From Halorientalis sp. IM1011 (GTDB lineage: Archaea > Halobacteriota > Halobacteria > Halobacteriales > Haloarculaceae): a stretch of 64,000 bases of DNA. The notes beneath the pieces are model-generated. The model had not been told where the DNA came from. It saw nothing but the letters and a program-made list of their open reading frames with translations, and searched no databases. The position numbers and the translations under genes are program-made. The first letter of the stretch is position 1, and every line of letters begins with the position of its first letter. This document shows positions 7,198-44,560 of the stretch, one piece after another. The stretch covers positions 806,001-870,000 of the forward strand of contig NZ_CP019067.1 of assembly GCF_001989615.1 (NCBI RefSeq). The letters run 5' to 3'.

Positions 7198-7252
7198 CGA
7201 GTTCGCTGTCGGTACCAAACGCATATGCTGATCGGGTGCAATCACTGAGCAA

Positions 7253-8365: not shown

Positions 8366-8480
8366 ACCTCTCGGATCCGCCGACAAAAGCGTTTACGCGG
8401 CGTCTGACGGGCGTCTGCCGGGCGACTGCCGGGCGCTATCAGGACTGGTAATTCCGGTCGCCGACAGGACGTCTGGCGTA

Positions 8481-9554: not shown

Positions 9555-10462
9555 CAGTCGTCACCCGGGACGGTGTCGAGTTCCACGTCGAAGGTCGTCG
9601 GGTCGACGACGGTCACCGTCCCGGTGTACTCGCGTTCGACCGGGCCCTGCAGGAGCGCGTCCCGATCGGTCAACTGGACGACCAGCCGACCACCAGGCGG
9701 GTGGGCCGGGACGCGCTGGCCCCGCTCGACCTTGCCGAGGCGCTCGGCAGCAGCGACGATGGCCACCGCACCCGTCCCACAGGAGTCGGTTTCGGCCTCG
9801 ACGCCGCGCTCGAAGGTCCGCTGGTCGAACCCACGAACCGTCCCGTCCGCGGCCTGACCGTCCGCCCGTGGCGCGGCGAAGTTGACGTTCGCGCCCTCGG
9901 GAAACACGTCGGCGTCCCGGACCGCGGGCGCGACGGCCTCCACGTCGACGCTCGTCACGTCGTCGACGAACGCGACGGCGTGGGGAACGCCGGTGTTGAC
10001 CGCCGTGACCGTCAGGCCCTCCACCTCCCGTTCGATCATGGGTTCGTCGCCGACGACGGGGACACGATCGGGTTCGAACGTGGGCGCACCCATCTCGATG
10101 GTGACGCCCTGCTCGCCGATCTCGGCGCGGCGCGTACCGGCCTGCGTGTCGATCATGACCTCCGGGGAACCGGTGCGTTCGGCGACCCACTTCGCCGCAC
10201 AGCGGGCGCCGTTGCCGCACATGGCCGCGACGCTCCCGTCCGGTTGAACCAGCGTCATCACGACCCGGGGCGGGGAGTACTCGTCCTCCAGCGCCAGAAA
10301 GAGGACGCCATCGGCCCCGCGTTTGCGCGCGTTGGGGTGATCGAGCCCGGTCTCCCGGTCACAGAGGTCGGCCGCGAACGCCCGGCGGTCCGGTACGTCC
10401 TCTGTCGCGTCGACGATGATGAAGTCGTTGCCCGTGCCGTGATACTTCTCTACTTCGACCAT
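9554..10462 (-). CDS. dapF: diaminopimelate epimerase
   Basis: 302-residue PLP-independent epimerase converting LL- to meso-diaminopimelate. Both catalytic cysteines are in their conserved settings: MCGNGARC and DSCGTGAVA. The N-terminal KYHGTGNDFIIVD is also typical. Length is slightly above the bacterial 275-280, from acidic insertions normal in haloarchaea. The ATG overlaps the end of lysA by 13 bp and the stop meets dapE, consistent with translational coupling along the operon. Confidence 0.96.
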   Translation of the reverse strand: MVEVEKYHGTGNDFIIVDATEDVPDRRAFAADLCDRETGLDHPNARKRGADGVLFLALEDEYSPPRVVMTLVQPDGSVAAMCGNGARCAAKWVAERTGSPEVMIDTQAGTRRAEIGEQGVTIEMGAPTFEPDRVPVVGDEPMIEREVEGLTVTAVNTGVPHAVAFVDDVTSVDVEAVAPAVRDADVFPEGANVNFAAPRADGQAADGTVRGFDQRTFERGVEAETDSCGTGAVAIVAAAERLGKVERGQRVPAHPPGGRLVVQLTDRDALLQGPVEREYTGTVTVVDPTTFDVELDTVPGDD

Positions 10463-11697
10463 GTTTCCAGTTCTGTAATGTCCGCGACCGCTTCCCGGCG
10501 AACCGCCAGCCGCGCGTCGGTACCGTCGAGGGCAACGACCGCCGGCCGCGGCCGGGAGTTGTAGTTGCTGCTCATCTCGTAGCCGTAGGCGCCCGCGTTC
10601 CCGACCGCGAGCAGGTCGCCCCGCTCGGAGTCGGGGAGCGGACGGTCCTCGCCCAGCACGTCCGCCGTCTCGCAGATCGGGCCGGCGACGGTCACCGAGA
10701 CGGTCTCGCGCCGATCGGCGTCACTCGCCAGCGAGCGGATCGTGTGATACGAGTCGTACATCGCCGGACGGACCAGCGTCGTCATGCCGGCGTCGACGCC
10801 CACGACGGTCGTCTCGGGCGTCGGCTTGACCGTATTGACCCGCGTCAGTAACACGCCGGCGTCCGCGACGAAGTACCGGCCGGGTTCGATCCCCAGTCGG
10901 GCGTCGACATCGCCGAACGCCTCCCGGGTCGCCGCCGCAACCGCGTCCAGATCCAGCGGGTCCTCCTCCTCCCGATAGGGAACCCCGAGGCCACCGCCGA
11001 CGTTGACGAACTCGATAGTGCCTACGTCGGAAATTACCCTCCGTGCAAGGTCACCCATCCGCGCGACGAGTTCGCGGTGGGCCTGCAGGTCCTCGCCGGA
11101 GATACCGCTCCCGGCGTGGGCGTGCAGGCCCACGAGGTCGAACCCGCGGTCGACGGCCTCGCTGGCGAGGTCGGGCACCCGGTCCATCGGGACCCCGAAC
11201 TTGGGGGCCGCGCCGGTCGACACCTTCTCGTGGTGACCGGCACCGACCCCGGGGTTCGCCCGGATACAGAGCCGGCCGGAAAAGCCGCGCTCGTCGAGAC
11301 GGTCGAGGGTGTCGGCCGCGCCCACGGTCACGATCAAATCGTGGTCGGCGGCGGCGTCGACGACGTAGTCCAGATCCTCCTCCGGCGGGTTCACCGCCGT
11401 GTAGCGGACGGCTTCGCCGTCGAATCCCGCGGCGAGGGCGCGTTCGACTTCCCCCGCGGAGGCGCACTCGGCACCGACACCGGTGGACTCGATGGTCTCG
11501 AGCACCGGCCGGGTGGTGTTGGCCTTGACGGCGTAGCTGATCTCCTCGGCGTCGAAGGCACTCTGGAGCCGGGCGGCGTTCTCGCGCACCCGGTCGGGAT
11601 CGAGGACGTACAGCGGCGTGTCGAACTCGGCGGCGAGGTCGCGCAGTCGCTCGGCGTCCCAGTCGGACAGCCGGCGGACCGCGACCCCCGAGCTCAT
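10450..11697 (-). CDS. lysA: diaminopimelate decarboxylase
   Basis: 415-residue fold-III PLP enzyme that decarboxylates meso-diaminopimelate to lysine. The PLP lysine lies in ISYAVKANTTRPVLE. HAHAGSGI, GGGLGVPY and EPGRYFVADAG provide phosphate and substrate contacts, and GPICETADVLGEDR carries the active-site Cys of the partner subunit. Length matches the family. The start overlaps the dapD stop by 4 bp. It sits between dapD and dapF although it acts last in the pathway. Confidence 0.96.
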   Translation of the reverse strand: MSSGVAVRRLSDWDAERLRDLAAEFDTPLYVLDPDRVRENAARLQSAFDAEEISYAVKANTTRPVLETIESTGVGAECASAGEVERALAAGFDGEAVRYTAVNPPEEDLDYVVDAAADHDLIVTVGAADTLDRLDERGFSGRLCIRANPGVGAGHHEKVSTGAAPKFGVPMDRVPDLASEAVDRGFDLVGLHAHAGSGISGEDLQAHRELVARMGDLARRVISDVGTIEFVNVGGGLGVPYREEEDPLDLDAVAAATREAFGDVDARLGIEPGRYFVADAGVLLTRVNTVKPTPETTVVGVDAGMTTLVRPAMYDSYHTIRSLASDADRRETVSVTVAGPICETADVLGEDRPLPDSERGDLLAVGNAGAYGYEMSSNYNSRPRPAVVALDGTDARLAVRREAVADITELETWSK

Positions 11698-12524
11698 TCT
11701 CGGAGTGCGTCTTCGCGCTCGGTGCCTTCGAGGGTTTCGGTCTCGATGTCGGTCGCGACCACCGCCGGCTTGTAGGCCGCGCCGGGGATCAGGTCCTCGT
11801 CGCTGACCGAGGACTCGACGTAGCGCGCGAAGGCCCGCCGCTCGGGCGGGAGTTCCCCGTACAGCACCTGGTCCTCGACGAGATCGTAGACTGGAATCCG
11901 CGGGGTCAGCAGCGTGTTCTCGCCCACGATGGAGTTCTCGCCGACGCGGAAGCCGGAGGTGACGCGACAGCCCGCCCCAAGCGAGACGCCGTCCTCGACG
12001 ATCACGGGGTCGTCCTCGACCGGTTCGAGGACGCCGCCGATCAGCGTGTTCGCACCCAGCTTGACGTTCTCGCCGATCTGGGCACAGGAGCCGACGGTGT
12101 CACAGGAGTCCACGAGCGTCCCGTCCCCGACGTGTGCGCCGATGTTGACGAACGAGGGGCTCATCAGGATCGCGTCGCTGCCCACGTAGGCACCGCGTCG
12201 GATGACGGTGCCGTCCGGCGTGTTCCGGGAGCCACGGTCGCCGATGTCGGCGGTCTCACGAAGCGGGAGTACGTCGTGGTACGCCACGTCGCCGTACTCG
12301 CGGGATTCGATCTCGCGGAGGCCGAAGTTGAGCAGGATGCCCTGCTTGACCCACTCGTTGACCTGCCAGTCCCCACCGGCGGGTTCGGCGGCCCGTACGT
12401 CGCCGGCTTCGAGGGCTTCGAGGAACGCGTCGAGCGTGTCGGCGTCCTCGGCGGTGGCGTCGTCGGCCGTGAGGCCGTCGTCGTAGCGATTCCACAGGGC
12501 TTCGATGTCGGATTGTAGGCTCAT
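11694..12524 (-). CDS. dapD: tetrahydrodipicolinate N-succinyltransferase
   Basis: 276-residue left-handed beta-helix acyltransferase that succinylates tetrahydrodipicolinate. An N-terminal helical domain with QSDIEALWNRYDDGL is followed by hexapeptide repeats (GDGTLVDSCDTVGSCAQIGE, GENSIVGENTLLTP, NTLIGGVLEP), as in bacterial DapD of 274 residues. Its presence with dapE shows that this archaeon uses the succinylase branch, not the diaminopimelate aminotransferase shortcut seen in methanogens. Four-base overlaps link it to dapB and lysA. Confidence 0.95.
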   Translation of the reverse strand: MSLQSDIEALWNRYDDGLTADDATAEDADTLDAFLEALEAGDVRAAEPAGGDWQVNEWVKQGILLNFGLREIESREYGDVAYHDVLPLRETADIGDRGSRNTPDGTVIRRGAYVGSDAILMSPSFVNIGAHVGDGTLVDSCDTVGSCAQIGENVKLGANTLIGGVLEPVEDDPVIVEDGVSLGAGCRVTSGFRVGENSIVGENTLLTPRIPVYDLVEDQVLYGELPPERRAFARYVESSVSDEDLIPGAAYKPAVVATDIETETLEGTEREDALRE

Positions 12525-13279
12525 TGGTCGATGACGTTCCCGAAGTCGTACCGCCCGGGCTCTTGGTTTTCGATCCAGACCGCGGCGTCCAGCGCGCCGG
12601 CCGCGAAGACGCTCCGGTCCTCGGCGTGGTGTGAGAGGGAGAGCACCTCGTCGTTGCCCGCCGCGATCAGTTCGTGTTCGCCGCGGATGTCGCCGGCCCG
12701 GCGGGCGAAGACACCGATCTCGTCCTCGTCGCGGGGCGCGTGGCCCTCGCGACCGTAGACCGGTTCCACGTCGCGTTCATCCTGGACGGTTTCGAGCATC
12801 GTCTTCGCCGTCCCGGAGGGCGCGTCGATCTTTCCATTATGATGGGTCTCCATCAGTTCGAGGTCGTAGTCGGGCACCGCGGGCAGAGCTTCCTCGATCG
12901 CCCGGAGCAGGGCGTGGATTCCCCGCGCGAAATTGGTGGCCTTCAGGAGCGGGACGGACTCGGCGGCGTCGTCGAGCGCGGCGAAGCCGTCCTCGTCGAA
13001 GCCGGTCGTGCCGACCACCAGCCCGACCCCTGCGTTCGTACAGGCCTCGGCGAGCGACAGGGTGGCCTCGGGGACGGTGAAGTCGACGGCCACCTCGGCG
13101 TCGTATTCCGCGAGTGCGTCGGCGGCCTCACCGGCGTCGACGACGGGTACGCCCTGCACCTCGTCGGGCCCTTCGACGTCGAAGCCGACGACGGCCTCCA
13201 CGTCGTCGCGGTCGGCCGCGGTCTCGATGACAGTCCGACCCATCCGGCCGGCCGCGCCGTTGACTGCGACCCGCGTCAT
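12521..13279 (-). CDS. dapB: dihydrodipicolinate reductase
   Basis: 252 residues. The N-terminal NAD(P)-binding motif is VNGAAGRMGRTV. The catalytic region reads METHHNGKIDAPSGTA, containing the His-His pair and Lys expected for hydride and proton transfer. GTTGFDEDG and ATNFARGIHALL are further family motifs. It reduces the product of DapA. The start overlaps the dapA stop by 4 bp and the stop overlaps the dapD start by 4 bp. Confidence 0.96.
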   Translation of the reverse strand: MTRVAVNGAAGRMGRTVIETAADRDDVEAVVGFDVEGPDEVQGVPVVDAGEAADALAEYDAEVAVDFTVPEATLSLAEACTNAGVGLVVGTTGFDEDGFAALDDAAESVPLLKATNFARGIHALLRAIEEALPAVPDYDLELMETHHNGKIDAPSGTAKTMLETVQDERDVEPVYGREGHAPRDEDEIGVFARRAGDIRGEHELIAAGNDEVLSLSHHAEDRSVFAAGALDAAVWIENQEPGRYDFGNVIDQ

Positions 13280-14196
13280 CGCTGGACCTCCGCCGGTTCG
13301 GGGGCGGTCCCGTCGTCGAGGTCGTCCAGCGTCTCACGGAGCGCGTCGAGCGTCTCGTCGGTGGCGCGGGAGAGCGGCGAGCGCATCCGACCCGAGTCGT
13401 AGTGGCCGCGGATCTCCATGGCCTCCTTGATCGGGATGGGGTTGCTCTCGGCGAAGAGCACCCGAAAGAGTTCGCCGAGTTCGTGGTGGTACTCACGGGC
13501 GCGCTCGAAGTCCCCCGACAGCGCGGCCCCGACGAGCGCGCAGGTCCGGGCGGGTTCGACGTTGGCCGAGACGGAGATACAGCCGCTGCCGCCGGTCGCG
13601 ATGATCGGCAGGGTCATCGCGTCGTCACCGGAGAGTATCGCGAAGTTCTCCTCGCGCGTGCGCTCGATGACCTCGGTGATCCGGTTCATGTCGCCGGAGG
13701 CGGCCTTGTAGCCGACGATGTTCTCGTGTTCGGCGAGATTCACGGCGGACTCGACGGCGATGTTGCGACCGGTCCGGGAGGGGACGTTGTAGATGATCTG
13801 GGGGAGGGAAACGGCGTCGGCGACCTGCCGGAAGTGGTTCTCCATGCCGGCGGGTTCGGGCTTGTTGTAGTACGGGGAGATCAAAAGGAGGCCGTCGGCC
13901 CCGGCGTCGGCGGCGCGTTCGGAGAGTTCGAGCGCCTCGCGGGTGTTGTTGCTGCCCGACCCGGCGATCACGGGCACGTCGTCGACGGCGTCGGTGACGG
14001 CTTCGATGACTTCGACGTGCTGGTCGTGCGAGAGGGTCGCGCTCTCGCCGGTCGTGCCCATGGGCACGACGCCGTCGACGCCGCGCTGTTCCAGCCACTG
14101 GGCGTGCTCGCGGAGTGTCTCGAAGTCGATGCTCTCGTCTGCGTGAAACGGCGTGGTCATCGCGGGGAACACGCCGGTGAACGTATCGTGTGTCAT
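13276..14196 (-). CDS. dapA: dihydrodipicolinate synthase, first gene of the lysine operon
   Basis: 306-residue class I aldolase-type TIM barrel condensing pyruvate with aspartate semialdehyde. The Schiff-base Lys lies in VGYKAASGDM, the Tyr of the proton relay in IIYNVPSRTG, and GTTGESATLS binds the substrate carboxylate. It is first in a six-gene unit (dapA, dapB, dapD, lysA, dapF, dapE) whose junctions all overlap by 1-13 bp. A TATA-like ACTATATCC about 28 bp upstream of the ATG suggests one leaderless promoter for the whole operon. No feedback riboswitch is apparent. Confidence 0.96.
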   Translation of the reverse strand: MTHDTFTGVFPAMTTPFHADESIDFETLREHAQWLEQRGVDGVVPMGTTGESATLSHDQHVEVIEAVTDAVDDVPVIAGSGSNNTREALELSERAADAGADGLLLISPYYNKPEPAGMENHFRQVADAVSLPQIIYNVPSRTGRNIAVESAVNLAEHENIVGYKAASGDMNRITEVIERTREENFAILSGDDAMTLPIIATGGSGCISVSANVEPARTCALVGAALSGDFERAREYHHELGELFRVLFAESNPIPIKEAMEIRGHYDSGRMRSPLSRATDETLDALRETLDDLDDGTAPEPAEVQR

Positions 14197-32456: not shown

Positions 32457-33536
32457 CTACATCAGGTCGTCGAGTTCGTCGTTCTGGAAGGCGTCTTTCG
32501 CGCTCTCGGTGGATTCTTCCTGCTGTTTGCTGGCCTCGCGAGCGCGGTCCATGAACTCCTGGACGCGCTGTGAGCGTTCGACGCCGCCGAGCAGGACGAG
32601 CGCGGCGATGCGTTCGCTGGAGAGGGGGAAGTCCCCGCCCCGGACTTCGAGGCTGCCGGTCTCCTCTTCGAGCCACTTGCGGGCGCGTTCGACGCCTTTG
32701 CGGGCGATGCGGTCGGGGTGGCCGGCGATCACGAGGAGGGCTTTGTCGGCCTCGACGGCCTGGGGGAGGGAGGTGCCGGTGAGGAGGGCTTTCCGGGCAG
32801 TGGAGGTGATGGCGTTGATGTTCTCGCCGGCGTCCTCGTCGGCCTTCGCGGAGGCGTAGCCGAGCGAGGCGATGCCACCGCTCGCGAGCGTGTTGATGAT
32901 CTCGCTGGAGTCGACGACCGACTCGCCGACGCCCTCGACCATCTCGCCCGCGGCGAGCAACAGGCCGACCCGTTCGGCGATGCGGTCGTTGATCGCCGCG
33001 AATCCTTCTTCGACGCTCTCGCCGGAGGTCTTCCAGGCGTCGTTGTCGATGACGAGCACGGAGTCGGCTTCTCTGGTGAAGGTCTTGAGCGAGCGACCGG
33101 CGTTGGCCTGGTAGATGGCGCCCTCGTCGCGGCCGGGCAGGACGCCGAGGCCGTACACCGGCATGGTGTAGACGCGCTTGAGTTCGCGGGTGAGCATGGG
33201 TGCGCCGCCGCTGCCGGTGCCGCCGCCGAGGCCGGCGACGACGAAGATGGCGTCGGCCTTGCTGGTGACGCGGCCGTCGAGTTCGTCCATGACCTCGGTG
33301 GCCTCGGCCTGCATGATTTCGGCCCCGAGTTCGTTGTCGCCGCCGACGCCGTGTCCTTTCACCCGGTCCTGTCCGACCAGCATCGTGTCGATGTCGAGAT
33401 TCTGGAGATCCGCGCGGGCCGTATTGACCGCGAAGGCTCCCTGTACCGCCTCGAACCCGCGGTCGTAGTCGAACTCCGCGAGCGCCTGCGCGATCTTCCC
33501 TCCTGCTTGCCCGACACCAATCAGGACGACTTTCAT
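32457..33536 (-). CDS. cetZ: CetZ-family tubulin-like GTPase
   Basis: 359 residues. The GTP-binding N-terminus KVVLIGVGQAGGKIAQALAE and the phosphate-binding glycine loop GGGTGSGG (about residues 104-111) define the tubulin/FtsZ superfamily. The wording near the start and SMVYGLG-like strand (TMPVYGLGVLPG) fit CetZ, not FtsZ. CetZ proteins polymerise and control cell shape and motility in haloarchaea. The frame continues far upstream of 33536, but only this ATG begins the fold. A TTTGATTA element 28-36 bp upstream fits its promoter. It is divergent from the pilus-like cluster. Confidence 0.93.
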   Translation of the reverse strand: MKVVLIGVGQAGGKIAQALAEFDYDRGFEAVQGAFAVNTARADLQNLDIDTMLVGQDRVKGHGVGGDNELGAEIMQAEATEVMDELDGRVTSKADAIFVVAGLGGGTGSGGAPMLTRELKRVYTMPVYGLGVLPGRDEGAIYQANAGRSLKTFTREADSVLVIDNDAWKTSGESVEEGFAAINDRIAERVGLLLAAGEMVEGVGESVVDSSEIINTLASGGIASLGYASAKADEDAGENINAITSTARKALLTGTSLPQAVEADKALLVIAGHPDRIARKGVERARKWLEEETGSLEVRGGDFPLSSERIAALVLLGGVERSQRVQEFMDRAREASKQQEESTESAKDAFQNDELDDLM

Positions 33537-33645: not shown

Positions 33646-34230
33646 ATGGACGGAGACGACGTGGAGGCACGGCTCGAAGCGGTCGAACGGGCGCTCGCCG
33701 ACGGGGACGCGGAGCTGACGGAAATAACCGAGGCCGCCGAGCAGGCGCGGGAACTCGACGAACTGCGCGACCGGATCGACGCCCTCGAATCGGAGGTGAC
33801 GGACCTGGCCGCCAGCGTCCAGGCAGTGCGCGGGTACGTCGGCAACGTCCGGACCGTCAACCAGGACGTGGAGCGCCGTGCCGACGCCGCACTCGCCAAG
33901 GTCGAGGAACTGGAGCGCCGCGGCACGGACCGTGAGGGTCGACACTCCCCCGAGCAGTCGGAGAGCACGGATCGAGCCGACGGGAGGGCCACCGACCGGA
34001 CCGAATCGCCAGGGGACATCGCGCGACGGATCACCGGCAGAGACGAACCCGAGCGAGGTCGGCGATCATCACGTAACGGGGCCGGCGGGCGTGACAGCGG
34101 CGGACATCGCCACGCCGACGAGAACAGACGGACACGGCCCCGGTCGCGGGACGGGCGCGGTCCCGCTGCCGGTTCGGGGAAGAGCGACGACGAGGACGGG
34201 TTCCTCTCGGGGCTGCGCGACGCGCTGTGA
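33646..34230 (+). CDS. coiled-coil protein, first gene of pilus-like cluster
   Basis: 194 residues. Residues 1-95 are an almost continuous coiled coil (VEARLEAVERALADGDAELT, ARELDELRDRIDALESEVTD). The rest is hydrophilic, Arg/Gly/Ser rich and probably disordered, ending in DGFLSGLRDAL. No membrane helix, so it is likely cytoplasmic. I recall a haloarchaeal family of this kind as DUF7310. It overlaps the next gene (TGATG), suggesting coupling. A cytoplasmic regulator or scaffold for the ATPase is a reasonable guess. Confidence 0.78.
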   Translation: MDGDDVEARLEAVERALADGDAELTEITEAAEQARELDELRDRIDALESEVTDLAASVQAVRGYVGNVRTVNQDVERRADAALAKVEELERRGTDREGRHSPEQSESTDRADGRATDRTESPGDIARRITGRDEPERGRRSSRNGAGGRDSGGHRHADENRRTRPRSRDGRGPAAGSGKSDDEDGFLSGLRDAL

Positions 34231-34724
34231 TGCTCCGGGTGGTCGTGGCAATCGTCCTCGCGTCGGCGCTGGTGGCAGCCAGTGTGCCGGGAATAGAGAT
34301 CGCTGCCCGGGAGCGAAGCGAGGCGGCGCTCACAGCAGAGGCCGACCGACTCCGAACGGCCATCGCGGACCTCCGCAACCGCGAGAGCGCCGTCGGATCG
34401 AACGCCGGCGCGCGTCGGATCGTCACGGTCGAAATCCCGGCCCGCTCCCGGACGAACGCCGGTGAATCCACGCTCGCGCTCGGCGGTGTGCCGGGCCAGA
34501 CGGAACAGTACGGAGAGTTCGCCGTCGACCTCGCGTGGCGAGTAGACGGCGGTGCGGTCACGGCGCGTCGACTGCCCGGCGTCCACGTCGTTCACTACCG
34601 GGACGGCCGCGTCCGCGACGAGCCGCTGGTTCTGGAGTCGCCGGGCAAACACCGGGTCGCACTGACGCGTATCGAACGCGACGGGCGGCGGCTGATCGGC
34701 GTCCGCCTGCTCCCGGAGGTTTAA
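34230..34724 (+). CDS. single-pass membrane protein of pilus-like cluster
   Basis: 164 residues. One N-terminal hydrophobic segment (MLRVVVAIVLASALVAASVP), then a helical stretch rich in charged residues and a beta-type domain (RIVTVEIPARSRTNAG, EFAVDLAWRVDGGAVTARRL). The layout is that of a pilin-like or assembly-accessory protein facing outward. A GTG three bases upstream is an alternative start. I recall the family as DUF7311, unverified. Confidence 0.75.
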   Translation: MLRVVVAIVLASALVAASVPGIEIAARERSEAALTAEADRLRTAIADLRNRESAVGSNAGARRIVTVEIPARSRTNAGESTLALGGVPGQTEQYGEFAVDLAWRVDGGAVTARRLPGVHVVHYRDGRVRDEPLVLESPGKHRVALTRIERDGRRLIGVRLLPEV

Positions 34725-34738
34725 GTCCGGAAACGGGA
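34718..34738 (+). promoter_or_regulatory. promoter 2 of pilus-like cluster
   Basis: GGTTTAAGTCCGGAAACGGG: TATA-like TTTAAG centred 29 bp before the ATPase ATG at 34751, followed by CCGGAAACGGGA, nearly identical to promoters 1 and 3. Confidence 0.55.
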
Positions 34739-34750
34739 CGAGCGACGGCC

Positions 34751-36658
34751 ATGGGAGTACTCAGTCGCGTCCGCAGCGACGACGATGAGACGGACTGTGG
34801 GTGTGAGCCGTCGTTCGACGGCGACCGGCTGATGGTCGACGCCGACAACTGTCCTGGCGAGGGACGGCTCGCGACCGAACCGGCCTGCCGTGAGACGGTC
34901 GTCGACGCGCTCCGGGAGCGAGACGCCGACGCCATCTGTACGCGGGCCGTGGGGACCGAACGGGCCTACGAGGGGACGGCCGCGGCCGCGCTCGTGGCCG
35001 CCGGCCGGTTCGCCGACGCGGCCGCGTTCCACGACGAGGGCATCGCCGACCGGGCACACCGTGACCCGCTCGGTGCCGCCCGGGCCGCCACGGGACGAGC
35101 GGGACCGGTGGCGAGACTGGCGGCCGAAACGGGGCTGGCCGAGGTGGCCGCACGGGCCGACGGCTACGACGACCTGCTCGCACCCGCGGTGGGGCCGACC
35201 ATCGGCCGGTCGCGAGTGCGACTCAAGCCGCCCGCGACGGCCAGATTCGCGTCTCGCCGGGAACTGGAGACGGGTGCAGTCGTGCGGATCTACGACGAAC
35301 CGGATCACGAGCGCCGGACCTACCACCTCGAACCGGTCGAGTACGGGTTCGGCGGGGCGGCCACCGAGCGACTGGTCGCTGCCTACGACCGGCTCGCCAG
35401 CGGTGCGGTGAGCGGGGGCGAGCGGGCACCGGGCCGGGCGGTCCGACGCGTCGTCGACAATGATGACGAGTTCGACGCGACGGTCGGCGTCCTCGAGCGG
35501 GTCCTGAAAAAGCACACGACCGGATACGGCGTGATCGCGGACCTATTCGCCGACGAGCGCGTCTCGGACGTGTTCGTGACCGCGCCGGCGGCGGACAATC
35601 GGATCCGTGTCCGTGTCGACGGCGAGACGCTGACGACGAACGTCCGGCTCACCGAGGGTGGCATCGAGGCGCTGGCGTCGCGATTCCGCCGGGAGAGCGG
35701 CCGGGCCTTCTCCCGGGCCAGTCCGGCGCTCGACGCGACGGCGACGGTCGCCGGCCGGCGCGTCCGGGTCGCCGGCGTCACCGAACCGGTCAGCGAGGGG
35801 GTCGCCTTCGCCTTCCGCGCGCACGAGCGGGAGGCGTGGACGCTCCCGGCGCTGGTCGCGAACGGCACGCTCCCCGTAGAGGCCGCCGCGCTCCTCTCGC
35901 TGGCGGTCGAACGCGACGCCGCGACGCTGCTGGCGGGGACCCGCGGTGCCGGGAAGACCACTCTGCTCGGGGCCCTCCTGTGGGAACTGCCCGCCGAGAC
36001 CCGAACCGTCGTCATCGAGGACTCGCCGGAGTTGCCGGTCGGGCAGTTACAGGACGCCGGCCGGGACGTGCAGTCGCTCCGGACCGGCGACGGGGACGGC
36101 GGGGAGCTCACGCCGGCCGAAGCGCTCCGGACCGCGCTCAGACTCGGAGAGGGCGCGCTGGTCCTCGGTGAGGTCCGCGGCGAGGAAGCGGGGGTCCTCT
36201 ACGAGGCGATGCGGGTCGGTGCGAGCGGGAGCGCGGTGCTGGGGACGATCCACGGCGACGGCGGCGCGGCGGTTCGCGAGCGCGTCGTCACCGACCTCGG
36301 CGTGCCGGAATCCTCTTTCGGCGCGACCGACCTGCTGGTGACGCTCGAACCCTACGAATCGCCGAGCGGTCGCGCTCGCCGGGTCAAACGGATCGAGGAG
36401 GTCGTCACCGCCGACGCCGTCGGCTTCGAGCCACTGTTCGAACTCGACGACGGCGACCTGACCTCGACCGGGCGGATCGAACGTGGGAACAGCCGCCTGC
36501 TCGACGGACTGGCTCGCTCCGGCGAGAGCTACGCTGCCGTCAGGGATCGCCTCCACGACCGGACGGACTGGCTGGCCGACCTCGCCGACGGCGATCGCAC
36601 CGATCCCGAGAAGGTCCGTCGAGCCCACGCCCGGCGACGGGCGGAGCGGACAGTATGA
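34751..36658 (+). CDS. type II/IV secretion (VirB11/PilB/TadA-like) ATPase
   Basis: 635 residues. The N-terminal 240 residues are specific and begin with a Cys-rich segment (DCGCEPSFDGDRL, DNCPGEG, EPACRE). The ATPase domain shows a Walker A GTRGAGKTT (about 396-404), the Asp box VVIEDSPEL, Walker B ALVLGEVRGEEA and a His box GTIHGDGGAA. Such motors power assembly of pili or secretion fibres. ATG 34751 lies 29 bp after a TATA element. The next gene overlaps by 4 bp and encodes the membrane platform, so motor and platform are coupled. Confidence 0.93.
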   Translation: MGVLSRVRSDDDETDCGCEPSFDGDRLMVDADNCPGEGRLATEPACRETVVDALRERDADAICTRAVGTERAYEGTAAAALVAAGRFADAAAFHDEGIADRAHRDPLGAARAATGRAGPVARLAAETGLAEVAARADGYDDLLAPAVGPTIGRSRVRLKPPATARFASRRELETGAVVRIYDEPDHERRTYHLEPVEYGFGGAATERLVAAYDRLASGAVSGGERAPGRAVRRVVDNDDEFDATVGVLERVLKKHTTGYGVIADLFADERVSDVFVTAPAADNRIRVRVDGETLTTNVRLTEGGIEALASRFRRESGRAFSRASPALDATATVAGRRVRVAGVTEPVSEGVAFAFRAHEREAWTLPALVANGTLPVEAAALLSLAVERDAATLLAGTRGAGKTTLLGALLWELPAETRTVVIEDSPELPVGQLQDAGRDVQSLRTGDGDGGELTPAEALRTALRLGEGALVLGEVRGEEAGVLYEAMRVGASGSAVLGTIHGDGGAAVRERVVTDLGVPESSFGATDLLVTLEPYESPSGRARRVKRIEEVVTADAVGFEPLFELDDGDLTSTGRIERGNSRLLDGLARSGESYAAVRDRLHDRTDWLADLADGDRTDPEKVRRAHARRRAERTV

Positions 36659-38400
36659 ATCCGGCCGTCGAGCGGGCCGTCCGGCTGCTCGCGCGGTGCT
36701 ATCCGTGGCCGGCCGAGGGGAGCGCCGACCTGGACCGGGCGCTCGGGTTCATCGGATCCGACCTGTCACCCGAAACCGTCGTCCGGGCGGGCTACGGCGC
36801 GGCGTTGCTGTGTGTCCCTGTGGTGGTTCTCGCCGGTCTCGTCGCACCCGCAGGGACGACACCGCTCGTCCTCGGGTGTGGGGCGGCGGGTGCCCTGGCC
36901 GTCGTCCACACGGTTCACAGCGCGCCCCACGCGCTCGCGACGGCCCGGCGGACACGGGCGCTGGGGGAAGCGCCGGCGCTGGTGAGCCGGGCCGTCCTCC
37001 GGATGCGCGTGACGCCGGCGACGGAGACGGCCGCAGCCTTCGCGGCCGAGACGGGACAGGGACCGCTGGCCGACAGCCTCGGCGAGCACGTGCGCCGTGC
37101 CGCCGGGAGCGCAGGGTCGGGCTTTCCCTCGTTCACCGATGAGTGGGACGAGTGGTTCCCCGACTTACGTCGCTCGCTCCTGCTCGTCGAGTCCGCCGGG
37201 ACGGCTCCCGCCGGGGAGCGTAAACGCGCCCTCGACCGCGGGATGGCGGCCGTCCTGGACGGGACCCGCGACCGGATGGCCGAGTTCGCCGCGAGTCTGC
37301 AGGGGCCGGCGACGGGGCTGTACGCCTTCGGCGTCTTGCTCCCGCTCGCGCTGGTCGCGATGTTACCTGCCGTTCGGACGACGGGTGCCTCGGTCCCGCT
37401 CGCGGCCGTCGTCGCGCTGTACGACCTCGCCCTGCCGGCCGTCCTCGTGGCCGCGAGCGTCTGGCTACTGATCCGCCGTCCCGTCACGTTCCCGCCGCCG
37501 TCGGTCGGACGCGATCACCCCGACGTGCCGAGTCGTCGGTGGCCGGCACCGGCCGCCGGGGCCGTCGCCGGCGGAGCAGGATGGCTCCTCGCGACCAGAC
37601 TCGTCGCGCCGTGGACGGGGCCGCTCGCGGCCGTCGGGTTCGCCAGCGGTGGGGCGCTCGTGGTCTACTACCGACCGATCACGGCCGTCCGCGATCACGT
37701 CCGGGCCGTCGAGGACGGACTGGCCGACGCCCTCTACCAGATCGGGCGGCGGGTGGAAGAAGGCGAGGCTGTCGAGCACGCCATCGCGACCGCGGCGGAC
37801 GAGGTAGGTGGCGCGACCGGCGAAGTTCTGCAGGAGGCCGCCAAGCGACAGCGCCGGCTCAAGGTCGGCGTCCGCGAGGCGTTCCTCGGCGACCACGGCG
37901 CGCTCGCGACGGTTCCGAGCGCCCGGGCGCGGAGTACCGCCACGCTCCTGGCAATGGCTGCGAGCGAGGGTCGGCCGGCCGGCGGGGCCATCGTCGCGAT
38001 GGCCGACAACGTCGAGGAACTCGCGGCCGTGGAACGCGACGCGCGCCACGAGATCGGGACCGTGACCGGGACGCTGGCCAACACCGCCGCGCTGTTCGGC
38101 CCGCTGGTCGCCGGTGCGACCGTCGCGCTGACCGCCAGCATGGACCCGGGCGGATCGATTTCGATAGGAGCTGCGGGGGTCACGGAGGCGACAGAGATGG
38201 CCTCGGGGATCGGAACCGCCGGTCTCGGACTGGCCGTCGGCGCGTACGCGCTCGTCCTCGCGGCGATCCTGACGACGCTCGCGACGGGGCTGGCCCACGG
38301 CCTGGACCGCGCGCTGGTCGGCTACCGCGTCGGCTGGGCGCTGCTGGTCGCGACCGCGACCTACCTCGCAGCGATCCACGCGGTCGGCCTGTTCGTCTGA
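36655..38400 (+). CDS. TadC/PilC/FlaJ-like membrane platform protein
   Basis: 581 residues with about nine hydrophobic segments in two halves, each with a helical cytoplasmic domain carrying the family pattern (ALVSRAVLRMRVTPATETAA; ADALYQIGRRVEEGEAVEHA). This is the type II secretion F-domain architecture with two copies, as in archaeal FlaJ/PilC. It would anchor the ATPase and gather pilin subunits. The start overlaps the ATPase stop by 4 bp. Confidence 0.9.
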   Translation: MNPAVERAVRLLARCYPWPAEGSADLDRALGFIGSDLSPETVVRAGYGAALLCVPVVVLAGLVAPAGTTPLVLGCGAAGALAVVHTVHSAPHALATARRTRALGEAPALVSRAVLRMRVTPATETAAAFAAETGQGPLADSLGEHVRRAAGSAGSGFPSFTDEWDEWFPDLRRSLLLVESAGTAPAGERKRALDRGMAAVLDGTRDRMAEFAASLQGPATGLYAFGVLLPLALVAMLPAVRTTGASVPLAAVVALYDLALPAVLVAASVWLLIRRPVTFPPPSVGRDHPDVPSRRWPAPAAGAVAGGAGWLLATRLVAPWTGPLAAVGFASGGALVVYYRPITAVRDHVRAVEDGLADALYQIGRRVEEGEAVEHAIATAADEVGGATGEVLQEAAKRQRRLKVGVREAFLGDHGALATVPSARARSTATLLAMAASEGRPAGGAIVAMADNVEELAAVERDARHEIGTVTGTLANTAALFGPLVAGATVALTASMDPGGSISIGAAGVTEATEMASGIGTAGLGLAVGAYALVLAAILTTLATGLAHGLDRALVGYRVGWALLVATATYLAAIHAVGLFV

Positions 38401-38402
38401 AT

Positions 38403-38421
38403 CCTTAAATACCGGAACGAG
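38403..38421 (+). promoter_or_regulatory. promoter 3 of pilus-like cluster
   Basis: CCTTAAATACCGGAACGAGA: TATA-like TTAAATA about 27 bp before the ATG at 38435, followed by CCGGAACGAGA, matching the other two cluster promoters. It lies in the only real gap inside the cluster after the platform gene. Confidence 0.55.
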
Positions 38422-38434
38422 ACCATCCCCGTCC

Positions 38435-38905
38435 ATGTTCGACGCACCGGCAGACACCTGGTATCTCTGGGTCGGGGTCGCGACGGCGAGCGCGCTCGCG
38501 TTCGGTGTCGCGGCCGCGCTCCCGACGACGGTCCCGCCGGATGCCCAGCGGGCGGCGGCGACGGTCGACGCGGTGGCGACCAGTCCGCACAACGCGACGG
38601 GCGAACACACGCTGGACGCGACGGCGGTCGAACTCGGCAGTCGACGCATCGGGCTGCGAAACGACGGCGGCACGACACACGCCGCGTTCGCCTACGGGCC
38701 CGTCACGCCGGTCCGGGGCGGAACCGATCTGGCGGCGGTCCTCCGGGGCGAACCGCCCGGGGACGTGTTCTCGAACGCGACCGAGTTCCGGACGGCCGCC
38801 GCGGAGGCGCGGAACCGCACTCGTGCGTGGCGAGAGACGGACGGGCGACTCGTGGCCCGCCGAGTCACCTGGGAGGGGATCGATGTCACGCTCGTCGGCG
38901 CGTAG
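38435..38905 (+). CDS. single-pass membrane protein of pilus-like cluster
   Basis: 156 residues. An N-terminal hydrophobic segment after MFDAPADTW (YLWVGVATASALAFGVAAAL) is followed by a small soluble, probably outward-facing domain (TLDATAVELGSRRIGLRNDG, PVTPVRGGTDLAAVLRGEPP). Several Asn-X-Thr/Ser sequons are present. No prepilin cleavage motif is evident. I recall the family as DUF7283, unverified. The end overlaps the next gene by 23 bp. Confidence 0.75.
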   Translation: MFDAPADTWYLWVGVATASALAFGVAAALPTTVPPDAQRAAATVDAVATSPHNATGEHTLDATAVELGSRRIGLRNDGGTTHAAFAYGPVTPVRGGTDLAAVLRGEPPGDVFSNATEFRTAAAEARNRTRAWRETDGRLVARRVTWEGIDVTLVGA

Positions 38906-39272
38906 GGGGCAGGTCGAGCCAGTCGCGGCCATCGTCGCTGTGTTCGCCCTCGGCGTCGGCCTGACCATCTACGCGGGCGCGGTCGAGGACGCGGTCCCAG
39001 GAACCGAGCCCCGGAACGTCGCACAGCCGACGCTGTCGGCCGTCGAGGACGCCATCGAGACCGCCGGCGTCGTCCAGACGGATCGCCTGTCGCGGGTCAA
39101 CGCCGTCACGCCCGCCGGTCGTCAGCTAAACGTGACGCTCACGGCCGGCGACCGGCGCTGGACTCGGGGTGATCGGGCCCCGGCATCGGCACAGCGGGCG
39201 AGTACCAGAGTGAGCGTCGGGCTGGGATCGGGACGGGTTCGTCCGGGTCGGCTCACGGTGAGGGTGTGGTGA
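38883..39272 (+). CDS. pilin-like protein with RRG-QVEP start
   Basis: 129 residues from ATG 38883, overlapping the previous gene by 23 bp. The N-terminus SSARRGQVEPVAAIVAVFAL looks like a class III (type IV pilin) signal: basic residues, Gly, then a charged residue and a hydrophobic helix. The Gln-Val-Glu-Pro start resembles TadE/TadG pseudopilins, which keep a Glu near the mature N-terminus. A small beta domain follows (RQLNVTLTAGDRRWTRGD). Recalled as DUF7285, unverified. Confidence 0.78.
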   Translation: MSRSSARRGQVEPVAAIVAVFALGVGLTIYAGAVEDAVPGTEPRNVAQPTLSAVEDAIETAGVVQTDRLSRVNAVTPAGRQLNVTLTAGDRRWTRGDRAPASAQRASTRVSVGLGSGRVRPGRLTVRVW

Positions 39273-40171
39273 TGCGGGCGATCAGTACGGTACTGGACGC
39301 CGCGCTCTTCCTCCTGCTCGTCGGGGCCGCTGTCGGGACCCTCGCGCTCGGAACGAGTCCGCCGCCGTCGGCGAACGCCGACGCGGCCGACGGCGTCGCC
39401 GACGCGCTCACGACGAGTACGGCGACCGTCCAGTACTCGCTCGCACCGGGCGCACGCCGAGCATCGTCGCGGGTCGTCACGTTCCCGATAACCGAGGGGG
39501 CGACGTTCCGACGGACCGCTCACGGTACGCTCGCGAGCCATCTCTCGACGGCTGCACTCGGCAGTCTCGCCGTCGATGGGCAGCGCGTCAGTCACGCACG
39601 GGTCGACTACCAACGATCGGTGGCCAACGCGACGCGGAACCTGACCCGCGGACGCGACCACCTCGCGCGGATCCGCGCTCGCTGGGAACCGTACCCCGAC
39701 GCGCCGATTCGAGGCACGTACACGGTCGGTCCCGCGCCACCACGGGACGCGACCGTTCACGCCGAAACAGTGGTCGTCGCGAGCGGCCTCCCGTCGACCC
39801 GAGAGGCGGCGCGGCGTGTGACGAGCGAGAACGCGACGAACGCCACCTTCGAGCGACTAGGGTCAATCGTGGCCCAGCGGGTCGTCCGGGGGCTGTTCCC
39901 GCCGAATCGGACCCGGAGCGCCCTCCTCGGGGACTACCCAGTCGAACAGCTCGTGACCTACCGGTACGAGCGGCTGGGCCGATTCCTCGGAGCGAACGTG
40001 ACGGCGCGAGCGGAGGCCGACAACGCCACGGGCGCTAACGACGCACTCGCGGCCGCGCTCGGCGATCGACTGGCCGCGGATATGCGGACTCGGTTCCAAT
40101 CGCCCAGTGCTGCGGCCGACGCGGTGTCGGTCGGCCAGGTCAGAATCACCGTCCGGACGTGGTCGCCGTGA
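39272..40171 (+). CDS. pilin-like protein with RA-IST start
   Basis: 299 residues from ATG 39272, one base overlap (TGATG) with the previous stop. It starts MRAISTVLDAALFLLLVGAA, close to the RAVSPVIG-type start of haloarchaeal pilins. The long ectodomain is mostly helical and has many Asn-X-Ser/Thr sequons (NATRNLT, NATNAT, NVT), consistent with a glycosylated exported protein. Recalled as DUF7284, unverified. It overlaps the next gene by 4 bp (GTGA). Confidence 0.78.
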   Translation: MRAISTVLDAALFLLLVGAAVGTLALGTSPPPSANADAADGVADALTTSTATVQYSLAPGARRASSRVVTFPITEGATFRRTAHGTLASHLSTAALGSLAVDGQRVSHARVDYQRSVANATRNLTRGRDHLARIRARWEPYPDAPIRGTYTVGPAPPRDATVHAETVVVASGLPSTREAARRVTSENATNATFERLGSIVAQRVVRGLFPPNRTRSALLGDYPVEQLVTYRYERLGRFLGANVTARAEADNATGANDALAAALGDRLAADMRTRFQSPSAAADAVSVGQVRITVRTWSP

Positions 40172-43100
40172 CCCGATCGTTCAGAGGCGACGAGCGCGGG
40201 TGGCTCCCCTTCGCGCTGGTCGGCGTCGTCCTCCTGGTGGGGAGCGTGGCGCTGTTCGTGGGTCTCCAGCCGGATCGCCCGGCCACGGAGCCGACGATGG
40301 ACGTGGCGGTCGAACGGGCCGTCGGCGAGTCATCCACCGCGATCCGGACGGCGGTCGTCGAGGCCGGCGACGCCGCGGCTATGGATCCGGTCCTCGAACG
40401 GGCGAACACGCCGGCCGGACACGTTCTCGACGACGAGACGCCGTTCCGGGACGCCCTCCGGGTCCGGATCTACCTGCGAGCGCGGGAGCGACTCGACGAC
40501 GTGACTGTCACGCGCAACGACGTGACGGCGACCGCCTCGCTCCCGGCGACGCCGAACGCCAGCGGTCTGGAATCGGCGATGGAGCGCGTCCACGTCGAAA
40601 CGGCCAACGACAACCAGACGCGCCTCCGGGTTCGGGTCGAGAACGTCACCGTGACCGCCACGCGCGGGAACGAAACGGTCGTTCGCCGGACGGTGAAACC
40701 GACGGTTACTGTCCGGACGCCGGTGCTCGCCGTCCACGACCGGATGGAGCGGTTCGATCGACGGCTAAACGCCGGGATCGGCCGGCCAGGCCTGACAGGT
40801 CGACTGACGGGTCGGCTGTTCGGCGTGGTCTGGGCGCGTGGGTACGCCCAGTACGGGTCCGGCGGCGTCGCCATCGAGAACGTGCTCGCCAACCGCCACG
40901 TGGAGATAATGACCAACGGCGCGATCCTTCGCGAGCAGCGCCACCTGTTCGGCCGGAGCGACGCCTCGGGCCGGCGAGCGATGGACCGCGCGATGGTCGG
41001 TGTCGGCCTGACCGACTTGCTTCACGGCGCGGGGGTTCCCGGTGGGTACGTCGAGACGCTGTTCGAGGGCGGCCGACCCGGACCGAATCCGAACGCGCCC
41101 GCCGGGATTCCGTCGCTGGAGACGGACACCGCGGCTCCCGACGCCGGGGATCGGATGACCGTCGGCGTCAACGGCACCGCCGACCGGGGACTGGCCAGGG
41201 CCACCGCGCCGGTGAGCCTCCGGTCGCTCGTCCGGTCGGTCTACAGCGCCGAGGTTCGGACGATCGGCGAAACCGATCGGACCAGCGGGTCGCTGCCGAG
41301 TTGCTGGACCGTCCAGCCCGACGGCTGGTGGCGACTCGACTCCGAGCGCGTCGGCCGAGACGATCCAACCGTGACGGGGACGACCGAGGTGAACCAGTCG
41401 ATCCCGGACGGCTGGCACGCGTTCGAATCGTTCGGCCGCCGGGTGAAACAGGAACGGACGAAGTACTGTCACTGGGTCGACGGCAACGAGACGACCGTCA
41501 CGGAGGCGAGCGACACCTTCCGCTTCCACGTCGGAGTGGCGCTGATCGGCCGGCACGCGCCCACTCCGTACGCACCGGCCAACGGAATCGAGACCGTCCA
41601 CGAAGCTGGAAAGGGACCGTTCGACGGGCCGAATCTGGCGAACGTCAGTCGACGGGCGCGACTCCGGCTGATCGACGGCCGCGGCGGCCCCGACGAACTG
41701 GCGAGGGACGCGGTGCGGAAGCGAAAGAACATCTCGGGCGTCCGAACCGTCCACGGTCGGGTTCCAGAGGGAATTCGAGGGTGGCTGCTGGCCGATCTGG
41801 TCGGCTTCCGCGACCGAGTCGCGAACGTCTCTGTCACTGTAAAGCGCGGCCGGGCCGGCGCGTTCGAGGCGAACCCGGCCGAGAAACTGGAGCGGAAACT
41901 CGGGGGGCTGGTCGCTCCGCCGAACGAGTACGGAAGCGTCGCCGAGAAGGCACGGTTCGCCGCCCGTGGGATGTACGCCGAGCAGACCCGGGAACTCCTC
42001 GAAAAACGGGCCCGAAAGCAAGCCCAGCGGAGACGGAATCTCGGTAAAGCGCTCGGGAGCGTCGGGGTCGACTCGCCGAACCTGCTGGAGCGGGCGCTGG
42101 AGACCCGGAGTGGCAACGGCTTGACGGCCCGCGAACCGGGCATCGACGGGGTCGACGTGACGGCCGTCGAGGGCTCGCCGGCGTACCTGACGGTCGCCGA
42201 GGTCGGCCCGAACCACGCCGACTCGTTACCCGAGGACGCTCGCATCAGTCCGCTCGCGACGAGAAACGTCAACCTGTTCGCGTCGCCTCACGGCAACGTG
42301 GCGGATACGCTGCTCGAAAGCGTCGACATGGGCTCGACCGTCGATCTCCGGACGGCCGCCCGCACCCTCCGCGCGACGCAGGCCGCCAGCGGACTGACGA
42401 CCGAAAACGAGACGCTCGACGAGACACTCGACCGGAAATCCAGGTCCCTGGAAGGGGTCGTCCAGCGAAGAGTCGGTTACTCACGGCGAGTGCTCAGGAA
42501 ACAGCTCGCCAGTATGGAGATCGGCGACGACGAATCCGAGCGCCGCCGCATCGTCGAGGACGCGCTCGCGCGGTGGGAGGGACCCGGAGCGAAAGCGCTG
42601 GCGCTGACGAACGGGTCGGCGGCATCGGCCGTCGCCGATCGAGCGATCGAACACGACGAGACGAGACGGGACAACCTGCAGGCCACGCTCAGGTTGGTGT
42701 TACACGCGACCGCGACCGGAACGGACACGCGGGTCTCACAGGCGAAGATCAGCACGACCGGGGAGCTGGTCCGGCAGAAAGTGACGGCCAGACTGGCCGC
42801 TGGCATCGAGAACGCAACCCGCGAAGGGGCGAGCCGGCTCGCCGACAGACTCGACGACCGGCTGAAACGGTCCCTGAACCGGGTCCCCGCTGGGCTCCCG
42901 ATCGTTCCGGTCGGTCCAGCGTGGTGGTTCACGGCGAACGCGTGGTTCGTCGACGTACGCGGTGGATACGACCGCTTCGCGGTGCGGGCGAAAACCGGTG
43001 CGGCCGGGGCTCCCGGTAGCTCGCTCACCTACGTCAGGGACGGCGGCGTCGCGGCCGTCGACTACGACGGCGACGGGGAGGACGAGCGGCTGGGACACGC

Positions 43101-43284
43101 CGACCGGATCTCGTTCGAGTCCCAGACCGGCGTCGTCATCGCCGTCCCGCCGGGGCCCCAGGGTGTCGGCGACAAGGACGGGAACGTCGACGAGCGCTCC
43201 GGAAGCTGGACGGACTGGCAGCCCGTCCGGCCGGCCAGATCGAACGGGACGGCAGTCCCGGCCACCTGGCCCGATCGGCGGTGA
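40168..43284 (+). CDS. very large pilin-like/TadG-like envelope protein
   Basis: 1038 residues from GTG 40168, chosen because GTGA overlaps the previous stop. N-terminus TRSFRGDERGWLPFALVGVV followed by one hydrophobic helix: pilin-like, with no further membrane span I can see. The huge exterior domain contains long helical, Arg/Glu-rich stretches (about 500-700), many sequons, and near its C-terminus VAAVDYDGDGEDERLGHADR, an Asp-rich loop that could bind calcium. I recall a haloarchaeal DUF7286 of this type. The size far exceeds ordinary pilins and recalls the adhesin-like TadG of bacterial Tad systems. Confidence 0.82.
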   Translation: MTRSFRGDERGWLPFALVGVVLLVGSVALFVGLQPDRPATEPTMDVAVERAVGESSTAIRTAVVEAGDAAAMDPVLERANTPAGHVLDDETPFRDALRVRIYLRARERLDDVTVTRNDVTATASLPATPNASGLESAMERVHVETANDNQTRLRVRVENVTVTATRGNETVVRRTVKPTVTVRTPVLAVHDRMERFDRRLNAGIGRPGLTGRLTGRLFGVVWARGYAQYGSGGVAIENVLANRHVEIMTNGAILREQRHLFGRSDASGRRAMDRAMVGVGLTDLLHGAGVPGGYVETLFEGGRPGPNPNAPAGIPSLETDTAAPDAGDRMTVGVNGTADRGLARATAPVSLRSLVRSVYSAEVRTIGETDRTSGSLPSCWTVQPDGWWRLDSERVGRDDPTVTGTTEVNQSIPDGWHAFESFGRRVKQERTKYCHWVDGNETTVTEASDTFRFHVGVALIGRHAPTPYAPANGIETVHEAGKGPFDGPNLANVSRRARLRLIDGRGGPDELARDAVRKRKNISGVRTVHGRVPEGIRGWLLADLVGFRDRVANVSVTVKRGRAGAFEANPAEKLERKLGGLVAPPNEYGSVAEKARFAARGMYAEQTRELLEKRARKQAQRRRNLGKALGSVGVDSPNLLERALETRSGNGLTAREPGIDGVDVTAVEGSPAYLTVAEVGPNHADSLPEDARISPLATRNVNLFASPHGNVADTLLESVDMGSTVDLRTAARTLRATQAASGLTTENETLDETLDRKSRSLEGVVQRRVGYSRRVLRKQLASMEIGDDESERRRIVEDALARWEGPGAKALALTNGSAASAVADRAIEHDETRRDNLQATLRLVLHATATGTDTRVSQAKISTTGELVRQKVTARLAAGIENATREGASRLADRLDDRLKRSLNRVPAGLPIVPVGPAWWFTANAWFVDVRGGYDRFAVRAKTGAAGAPGSSLTYVRDGGVAAVDYDGDGEDERLGHADRISFESQTGVVIAVPPGPQGVGDKDGNVDERSGSWTDWQPVRPARSNGTAVPATWPDRR

Positions 43285-43393
43285 ACGGCCCCACACCGTC
43301 GGAAACGGCGTGGAACGCCACTAACGCGCCGTTCGGACGGTGAATGTGCCCGACTTCGCCATGTTCAAGCCGGGTGGCTTCGAGGGGGAACAC

Positions 43394-44560
43394 ATGACAC
43401 GCTCCGTCTGGCTGAAAGCCGACGACGAAGTCGGCGACTGGGAGACACGCAAACGACGTATCACCGCCGGTCTGGAGGCCGGCGTCGACTGGGTACTGGT
43501 CGACGAGTCCGACGTGGAACGCGTCCGCGAACTCGGCGAAGTGAACGTCGCCGCCTTCTCGAACGGCGACGTACACGTCATGGAAGCCGAGGAAGACGAG
43601 ACGAACGCCGACGCTGTCGTCGTGGGCAAGGACGGTGAGGGCGACGGGACCGTCGATTTGCCGACCGACTTCTCCGGCTCCGCCGATCTCTCCTCACTGC
43701 GATCCAACGGCGAGAATCCCCAGGGTGGCTACGTCCGCATCCTGAACGAGGACTACGAGGCCTTCGCACAGTCGGTGGCGGAGGAGGCGGAGTACACCCT
43801 CGTCGTGGGCGAGGACTGGCAGATCATCCCCCTGGAGAACCTCATCGCCCGCATCGGCGAGGAGACGGATCTGATCGCCGGCGTCCAGTCCGCCGACGAA
43901 GCCCGCACCGCCTTCGAGACGCTGGAACTCGGATCGGACGGCGTCCTGCTGGACACCGACGATCCCGACGAGATCCGGAAAACGGTCGAGGTCCGCGAGG
44001 AGAGCCAGCGCGAGTCCGTCGACCTGCAGTGGGCCGAGGTCACGGCCATCGAACAGACCGGCTCCGCCGACCGGGTCTGTGTCGACACGGGCAACCTGAT
44101 GGAACACGACGAGGGGATGCTCGTCGGGTCGATGTCGCGTGGTCTCTTCTTCGTCCACGCCGAGACGGCCGAATCGCCCTACGTGGCGTCCCGACCCTTC
44201 CGGGTCAACGCCGGCGCGGTCCACGCTTACGTCCGCACGCCCGACGGTGGGACGAAGTACCTCTCGGAACTGCGAAGCGGCGACGAGGTACAGGTCGTCG
44301 ACACGAACGGCAACACCCGCGAGGCCATCGTCGGCCGCGTGAAGATCGAGAAGCGTCCGATGTTCCGGGTGCAGGCCGAAACCGCCGAGGGCGACCGGAT
44401 CGAGACGCTCCTCCAGAACGCAGAGACGATCAAAGTCGCCACGAAAGACGGCCGGAAAGCCGTCACGGACCTCGAAGCCGGCGACGAACTGAAGGTGTTC
44501 TACGAGGACACCGCACGGCACTTCGGCGAGGCTGTCGACGAGAGCATCATCGAAAAGTAA
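43394..44560 (+). CDS. aroB': 3-dehydroquinate synthase II (archaeal AroB')
   Basis: 388 residues. The archaeal alternative dehydroquinate synthase uses 2-amino-3,7-dideoxy-D-threo-hept-6-ulosonate instead of DAHP. Family segments: VWLKADDEVGDWETRKRRIT, YTLVVGEDWQIIPLENLIA, GADRVC-like SADRVCVDTGNLMEHDEGML, MSRGLFFVHAETAESPYVAS, RPFRVNAGAVHAYVR. ATG 43394 begins the conserved N-terminus; a TATA-like TTCAAG lies about 28 bp upstream. It supplies AroD, encoded at 47072-47761, in aromatic amino acid synthesis. Confidence 0.95.
   Translation: MTRSVWLKADDEVGDWETRKRRITAGLEAGVDWVLVDESDVERVRELGEVNVAAFSNGDVHVMEAEEDETNADAVVVGKDGEGDGTVDLPTDFSGSADLSSLRSNGENPQGGYVRILNEDYEAFAQSVAEEAEYTLVVGEDWQIIPLENLIARIGEETDLIAGVQSADEARTAFETLELGSDGVLLDTDDPDEIRKTVEVREESQRESVDLQWAEVTAIEQTGSADRVCVDTGNLMEHDEGMLVGSMSRGLFFVHAETAESPYVASRPFRVNAGAVHAYVRTPDGGTKYLSELRSGDEVQVVDTNGNTREAIVGRVKIEKRPMFRVQAETAEGDRIETLLQNAETIKVATKDGRKAVTDLEAGDELKVFYEDTARHFGEAVDESIIEK

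Follow-up and report, generated by a model that had tools for sequence, protein, structure and literature searches.

A PilB2-PilC2-type locus of Halorientalis sp. IM1011 as a probable archaeal type IV pilus, with relatives in methanogens

Eight genes in the genome of Halorientalis sp. IM1011 form an operon, probably for a dedicated type IV pilus of the archaeal PilB2-PilC2 type (subclade 4F), comprising a motor, a membrane platform, minor pilins and a giant exported protein; we assign this reading a probability of about 0.72. It draws on the order of the eight genes, the ATPase motifs, the prepilin-like N-termini, the methanogen homologues, the co-inheritance of an Ig-like pilin and the presence of one prepilin peptidase gene in the genome, as well as on the published co-transcription of pil-2 and its three FlaFind prepilins (PMC4292770). 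Judged by gene content and order, the locus appears to be the haloarchaeal pil-2 or PilB2-PilC2 regulon of the 4F archaeal type IV pili. The sequence-only reading that preceded this work had considered the set undescribed, which is incorrect, as the regulon is already found in three publications (PMC4292770, PMC4858521, PMC9856176).

Gene content and published counterparts

Eight intact ORFs on the + strand fill positions 33646-43284 of the window (the whole stretch of 64,000 nt that was analysed), as had been claimed for them (Table 1). The genes follow each other with spacings of -4, +26, -4, +34, -23, -1 and -4 bases, all of them ≤34 bases, in the order DUF7310, DUF7311, PilB-type ATPase, PilC-type membrane protein, DUF7283, DUF7285, DUF7284, DUF7286. 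Seven of the eight proteins match curated Pfam families at about E 7e-20 or better, the platform being the exception, and these matches together with the conserved gene order argue against a chance cluster. DUF7310, which is gene 1 in every fetched locus, probably corresponds to arCOG07564, the coiled-coil protein specific to subclade 4F, a match drawn from PMC4858521.

Table 1. Features of the locus and its flanks (window positions; a slash marks a predicted cleavage site)
Feature	Position	Strand	Evidence
CetZ tubulin-like protein, probably CetZ2	32457..33536	-	PF21011 E 3.5e-68
DUF7310, coiled-coil cytoplasmic protein, 194 aa	33646..34230	+	PF23991 E 1.3e-28
DUF7311, 165 aa, probable minor pilin	34227..34724	+	PF23993 E 4.1e-35; TM 5-23
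PilB2-type assembly ATPase, 635 aa	34751..36658	+	PF00437 E 7.4e-20
PilC2/TadC-type membrane platform, 581 aa	36655..38400	+	TM map; T2SSF E 0.74 (weak, under cut-off)
DUF7283, 156 aa, single N-terminal helix	38435..38905	+	PF23954 E 2.3e-55
DUF7285, 129 aa, putative minor pilin, site RG/QVEP	38883..39272	+	PF23956 E 5.3e-36
DUF7284, 299 aa, minor pilin-like, RA/ISTVLD	39272..40171	+	PF23955 E 2.2e-93
DUF7286 giant, 1038 aa, start GTG 40168	40168..43284	+	PF23957 1054 bits
3-dehydroquinate synthase II	43340..44560	+	

The CetZ gene and the operon are divergent with 109 bases between them, a possible shared control region; the promoter scan that was run is of the sigma type and is uninformative for archaea. 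CetZ is regarded here as an associated neighbour of the operon. At the other end, the 3-dehydroquinate synthase II gene starts 55 bases past the DUF7286 gene and adjoins the cluster in two relatives within Halorientalis as well (L047, L048); its metabolism is unrelated.

The Walker-A ATPase recognized by the earlier reading is borne out by its match to PF00437, the T2SSE family, and by the presence of a Walker A motif GTRGAGKT (residue 396), a Walker-B-like motif LVLGEVR (470) and a His box TIHG (499). Its N-terminal domain carries Cys16, 18, 34 and 46, which are kept in 24/24 relatives, and the methanogen PilB2 orthologues have the N-terminal pattern DCxxC...C. The nearest solved structures in the PDB are archaeal GspE2 (2oap, 2.6e-29), followed by CpaF of the Tad system (6e-20), with FlaI also matched; TIGR03819 matches at 3.9e-36, which is under the cut-off of that model. 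The two-half TadC/PilC-like platform proposed earlier is less secure from its sequence: about seven predicted membrane helices fall into two clusters, and the position and the orthology of the gene agree, but the T2SSF match is weak, and the two halves compared with each other reach a probability of 17%, by which an internal repeat is not demonstrated. We accept the identity of the platform from its topology, its position and the orthologues beside PilB2 in methanogens, where PilC2 adjoins PilB2 in three motor loci (E 1e-100 to 1e-108).

In Halobacterium salinarum, pil-2 (OE1347R-OE1332R) comprises seven ORFs from pilB2 that are co-transcribed and include three FlaFind prepilins, and its relative transcript is higher in attached cells, no function having been tested for pil-2 (PMC4292770). 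That haloarchaeal locus resembles the present one in having PilB2, PilC2, three predicted prepilins and further genes, and differs from it in being described without DUF7310 and DUF7311 and in the pilC2 of strain R1, which is interrupted by a stop and accompanied by a low transcript level (PMC4292770). The census PMC4858521 gives subclade 4F a cysteine-rich ATPase N-terminus, a coiled-coil protein, an FtsZ-like neighbour and a mostly stand-alone major pilin, arCOG02981, and places the subclade in methanomicrobia also. The window locus and its genome have the corresponding features, i.e. the four-Cys ATPase N-terminus, the DUF7310 coiled coil, the CetZ neighbour and a stand-alone Ig-like pilin, whereas the five-protein exported module and the co-inheritance counts given below come from the present analysis. 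The pilB2/C2 regulon has also been reported beside cetZ2 in Haloferacales and Halobacteriales (PMC9856176), where the same neighbourhood is handled as the context of CetZ and not as a machine.

The earlier choice between a Tad-like and a type IV pilus-like system can be narrowed to the latter. The ATPase is related to that of the bacterial Tad pili (CpaF/TadA, TadB/C, TadE/F/G), but GspE2 is nearer than CpaF, no match to TadE, TadF, TadG or TadZ was obtained among the eight proteins in Pfam or NCBIfam, and the locus is likewise without a secretin match. The Haloferax PilB3-C3/PilA system shares the logic of an archaeal type IV pilus with pilins supplied in trans; its ATPase belongs to another clade, and PilA has Pilin_N, whereas the pilin linked to the present system is without it.

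Exported proteins and a candidate fibre subunit

The three pilin-like N-termini quoted by the sequence-only reading are all exact (DUF7285 MSRSSARRGQVEP, DUF7284 MRAISTVLD, DUF7286 DERGWLPFALVG), but its count of three exported-type proteins has to be raised. DUF7311 and DUF7283 each have one N-terminal hydrophobic helix by transmembrane prediction, and the predicted exported-type proteins number five, namely DUF7311, DUF7283, DUF7285, DUF7284 and DUF7286, the inclusion of the first two being new here. In DUF7285, DUF7284 and DUF7286 a few N-terminal residues up to [KR][GA] precede a single hydrophobic helix, the layout of a class III signal peptide with a cleavage site predicted after [KR][GA]. 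The motif is well kept in DUF7286 ([KR][GA]x[VIL]PF in 30/31 members) and in DUF7285 ([KR][GA]xx[ED]P in 31/36, methanogens included). For DUF7284 the full motif is kept in 27 of the 36 members, and its STxxD core persists in those without the basic residue; since this residue is lost in four fetched haloarchaea (L060-L063), the predicted cleavage is doubtful there. The N-termini of DUF7283 and of haloarchaeal DUF7311 are without a prepilin site in the fetched loci. DUF7283 may be an exported accessory or minor pilin-like protein, and DUF7311 is a probable minor pilin; the N-terminus of methanogen DUF7311 matches the first 40 residues of the candidate major pilin discussed below at 93.5% with one family profile and at 55% with another. 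Compared with each other by profile, the five exported families have no detectable homology (at most 14%).

The giant DUF7286 starts with the N-terminal helix RG/WLPFALVG, followed by a large exported part. Its best-kept regions are this helix, a segment at approximately 200-260 and the beta-rich domain of the C-terminal part at about 905-1010, and its middle is variable, which fits the expectation for a surface-exposed protein. DUF7286 is viewed as a probable large tip or surface subunit. Of the two roles suggested for it earlier, adhesin is plausible, although a Pfam search detected no known adhesin domain in it, and sensor has nothing in its support. With alignments of three sequences, the window protein and two close relatives, AlphaFold gave models of DUF7284 and DUF7286 that are of no use (pLDDT 36 and 37); residues 41-182 are the sole moderate stretch of the DUF7286 model, with which Foldseek gave no match below E 0.1.

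The main fibre subunit was expected by the sequence-only reading to lie outside the locus or to be atypical, and the search for it supports the first of these. There is no Pilin_N gene within the locus and seven over cut-off elsewhere in the genome, which has one prepilin peptidase gene (PF01478). A small pilin carrying an Ig-like domain adjoins a methanogen motor (L118) and, used as a query, has two matches in the Halorientalis genome, one stand-alone at about 1,355,540 of contig C1 and the other beside a second copy of the operon; its N-terminus is DERA/IEGLPVRLVIALVVG. With a search profile built from four sequences, the full-length Ig-like pilin was found in 33/33 genomes with the system, nine methanogens among them, versus 0/28 without it (Fisher p = 5e-18, computed over genomes that are not independent). 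The system-free group was defined by the absence of a PilB2 orthologue, some of its genomes having been screened for DUF7284 or DUF7286, one only; three of the 28 have partial pilin matches only, which lie within long frames (E 6e-5 to 8e-4), and two further genomes, G012 (pilin present) and G044 (pilin absent), were set aside from the count. Within the genus g16, two genomes have the system and three do not, and the distribution of the pilin agrees fully. The main fibre subunit is therefore probably this small Ig-like pilin encoded elsewhere, an assignment that is new here, and we infer that it corresponds to arCOG02981.

Conservation in haloarchaea and methanogens

The DUF7286 family is present in 224 of 292 genomes of the class Halobacteria and was also detected in the Methanosarcina acetivorans control. 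Synteny across the class, proposed earlier as a check, is complete in the sample: the eight genes have the same order and strand in 22/22 fetched haloarchaeal loci, a set picked for spread by DUF7286 presence and hence skewed to intact clusters. The ATPase is the most similar to its window counterpart (median identity about 60%), the exported proteins being less alike (medians about 32-49%). In 16/22 of these loci the gene facing away from the operon is CetZ. Searches of viral contigs with PilB2 and of plasmids with DUF7286 gave zero relatives, by which a mobile element is unsupported.

The same genome contains a second, divergent eight-gene copy in the same order on contig C1 at about 1,035,600-1,047,000 (L046, C1:1033000-1049000, 937-14015), preceded by genes for an Ig-like pilin and a HerA-type ATPase. 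The giant of this copy is longer, at 1351 aa, its C-terminus being extended by roughly 380 residues; the next protein has a weak PQQ-like match.

DUF7284 homologues occur in other families of the phylum, and nine methanogen genomes that have them were examined. By profile, their neighbours match DUF7311 at 97%, DUF7285 at 95-97%, DUF7284 at 99% and DUF7286 at 100%, off-diagonal (unrelated) pairs being low, while for the protein in the position of DUF7283 the value is no higher than 15% and the assignment is positional. Clear methanogen homologues thus exist for four of the five predicted exported proteins, which is new here, and in the fetched methanogen loci the genes of this exported module are not beside the motor. 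A single clear PilB2 orthologue is present in each of the nine module-bearing methanogens (9/9; 38-45% identity, E < 1e-74), the next paralogue in the same genomes being at about 1e-28 or worse. Of 31 comparison genomes chosen for the absence of DUF7284 or DUF7286, only G010 was found to have an intact PilB2 orthologue, and DUF7286 is present in G010. G044 retains an N-terminal fragment of PilB2 only, and G012 has the Ig-like pilin and a DUF7286 match without PilB2, suggesting that both carry apparent remnants of the system in decay. Further pilin-like proteins, among them one weakly like DUF7266, are encoded in a separate run near a methanogen module (L077:880-4546, - strand) and are perhaps another pilus set. 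The view of pil-2 as haloarchaea-only was based on blastn (PMC4292770); the present comparison, being more sensitive, reveals relatives in methanogens, in line with the census PMC4858521.

Proposed mechanism and alternative readings

According to the proposed model, the pilins would be trimmed by the one prepilin peptidase that the genome encodes, and PilB2, with its cysteine-rich N-terminal domain, would drive PilC2 so that pilins are raised from the membrane. DUF7311, DUF7283, DUF7285 and DUF7284 could form a minor-pilin or priming complex, and a fibre would be polymerised out of the Ig-like pilin of another locus, with DUF7286, the largest component, possibly located at the tip or outer surface and touching surfaces or other cells. 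By analogy with other haloarchaeal pili, the most likely role would be attachment. Several observations count against the pilus model, including the interrupted pilC2 and low transcript of Halobacterium R1 and a filament so far unseen (PMC4292770), the weak T2SSF match, the missing site in DUF7283 and haloarchaeal DUF7311, the basic residue lost from DUF7284 in several genomes, the unusable structure models, and the pilin of G012 without PilB2.

A pilin-like set and a giant in one operon without a typical main pilin could also constitute a pseudopilus machine for secretion or surface display, in which a short stub exports or anchors DUF7286 without a long fibre. The greater variation of the exported proteins, including the giant, relative to the motor is in agreement with such a stub, but the strict co-inheritance with the stand-alone Ig-like pilin argues for a polymer, and we consider the stub unlikely. 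Less probable still is a DNA-exchange apparatus of Halobacteriota, functionally like Ups/Ced of Sulfolobales, combining the pilus with a HerA-type pumping ATPase; DUF7286 would then be a giant for cell-cell contact, and HerA and the fibre subunit would often be unlinked in haloarchaea. This possibility is raised by HerA/DUF87-type ATPases linked to the system in three genomes distant from each other. The ATPase gene separates the pilin from the operon both at the second copy (L046:1459-2586) and in another haloarchaeon (L082:1745-2812), and close to the methanogen motor (L118:10950-13094) it is followed by the prepilin peptidase and then the DUF7311 pilin. Some loci resemble Ups/Ced in having a pilus and a HerA-type ATPase, but a search of the window and the remaining fetched haloarchaeal loci found no HerA-like gene, no Ced membrane protein was identified, and the wider FtsK-HerA superfamily includes the PilB-type ATPases too (PMC4858521). 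The HerA-type ATPase could serve DNA exchange or something unrelated. The least probable reading is a cell-shape or envelope-scaffold system run together with the neighbouring CetZ tubulin. It would account for the frequent divergent CetZ gene and the published CetZ2 association (PMC9856176), but CetZ is not adjacent in six loci or at the second copy in this genome, and the same publication interprets the pattern as a regulon inserted beside cetZ2.

The set ranks among the commonest surface-machine loci of haloarchaea, the family of its giant being present in about three quarters of the sampled genomes, with no filament or phenotype assigned to it. The methanogen relatives show that the set is older than the haloarchaea or is not confined to them. 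With a candidate fibre subunit, five predicted exported proteins and a surface partner of 1000 residues in hand, its function becomes directly testable in Haloferax volcanii.
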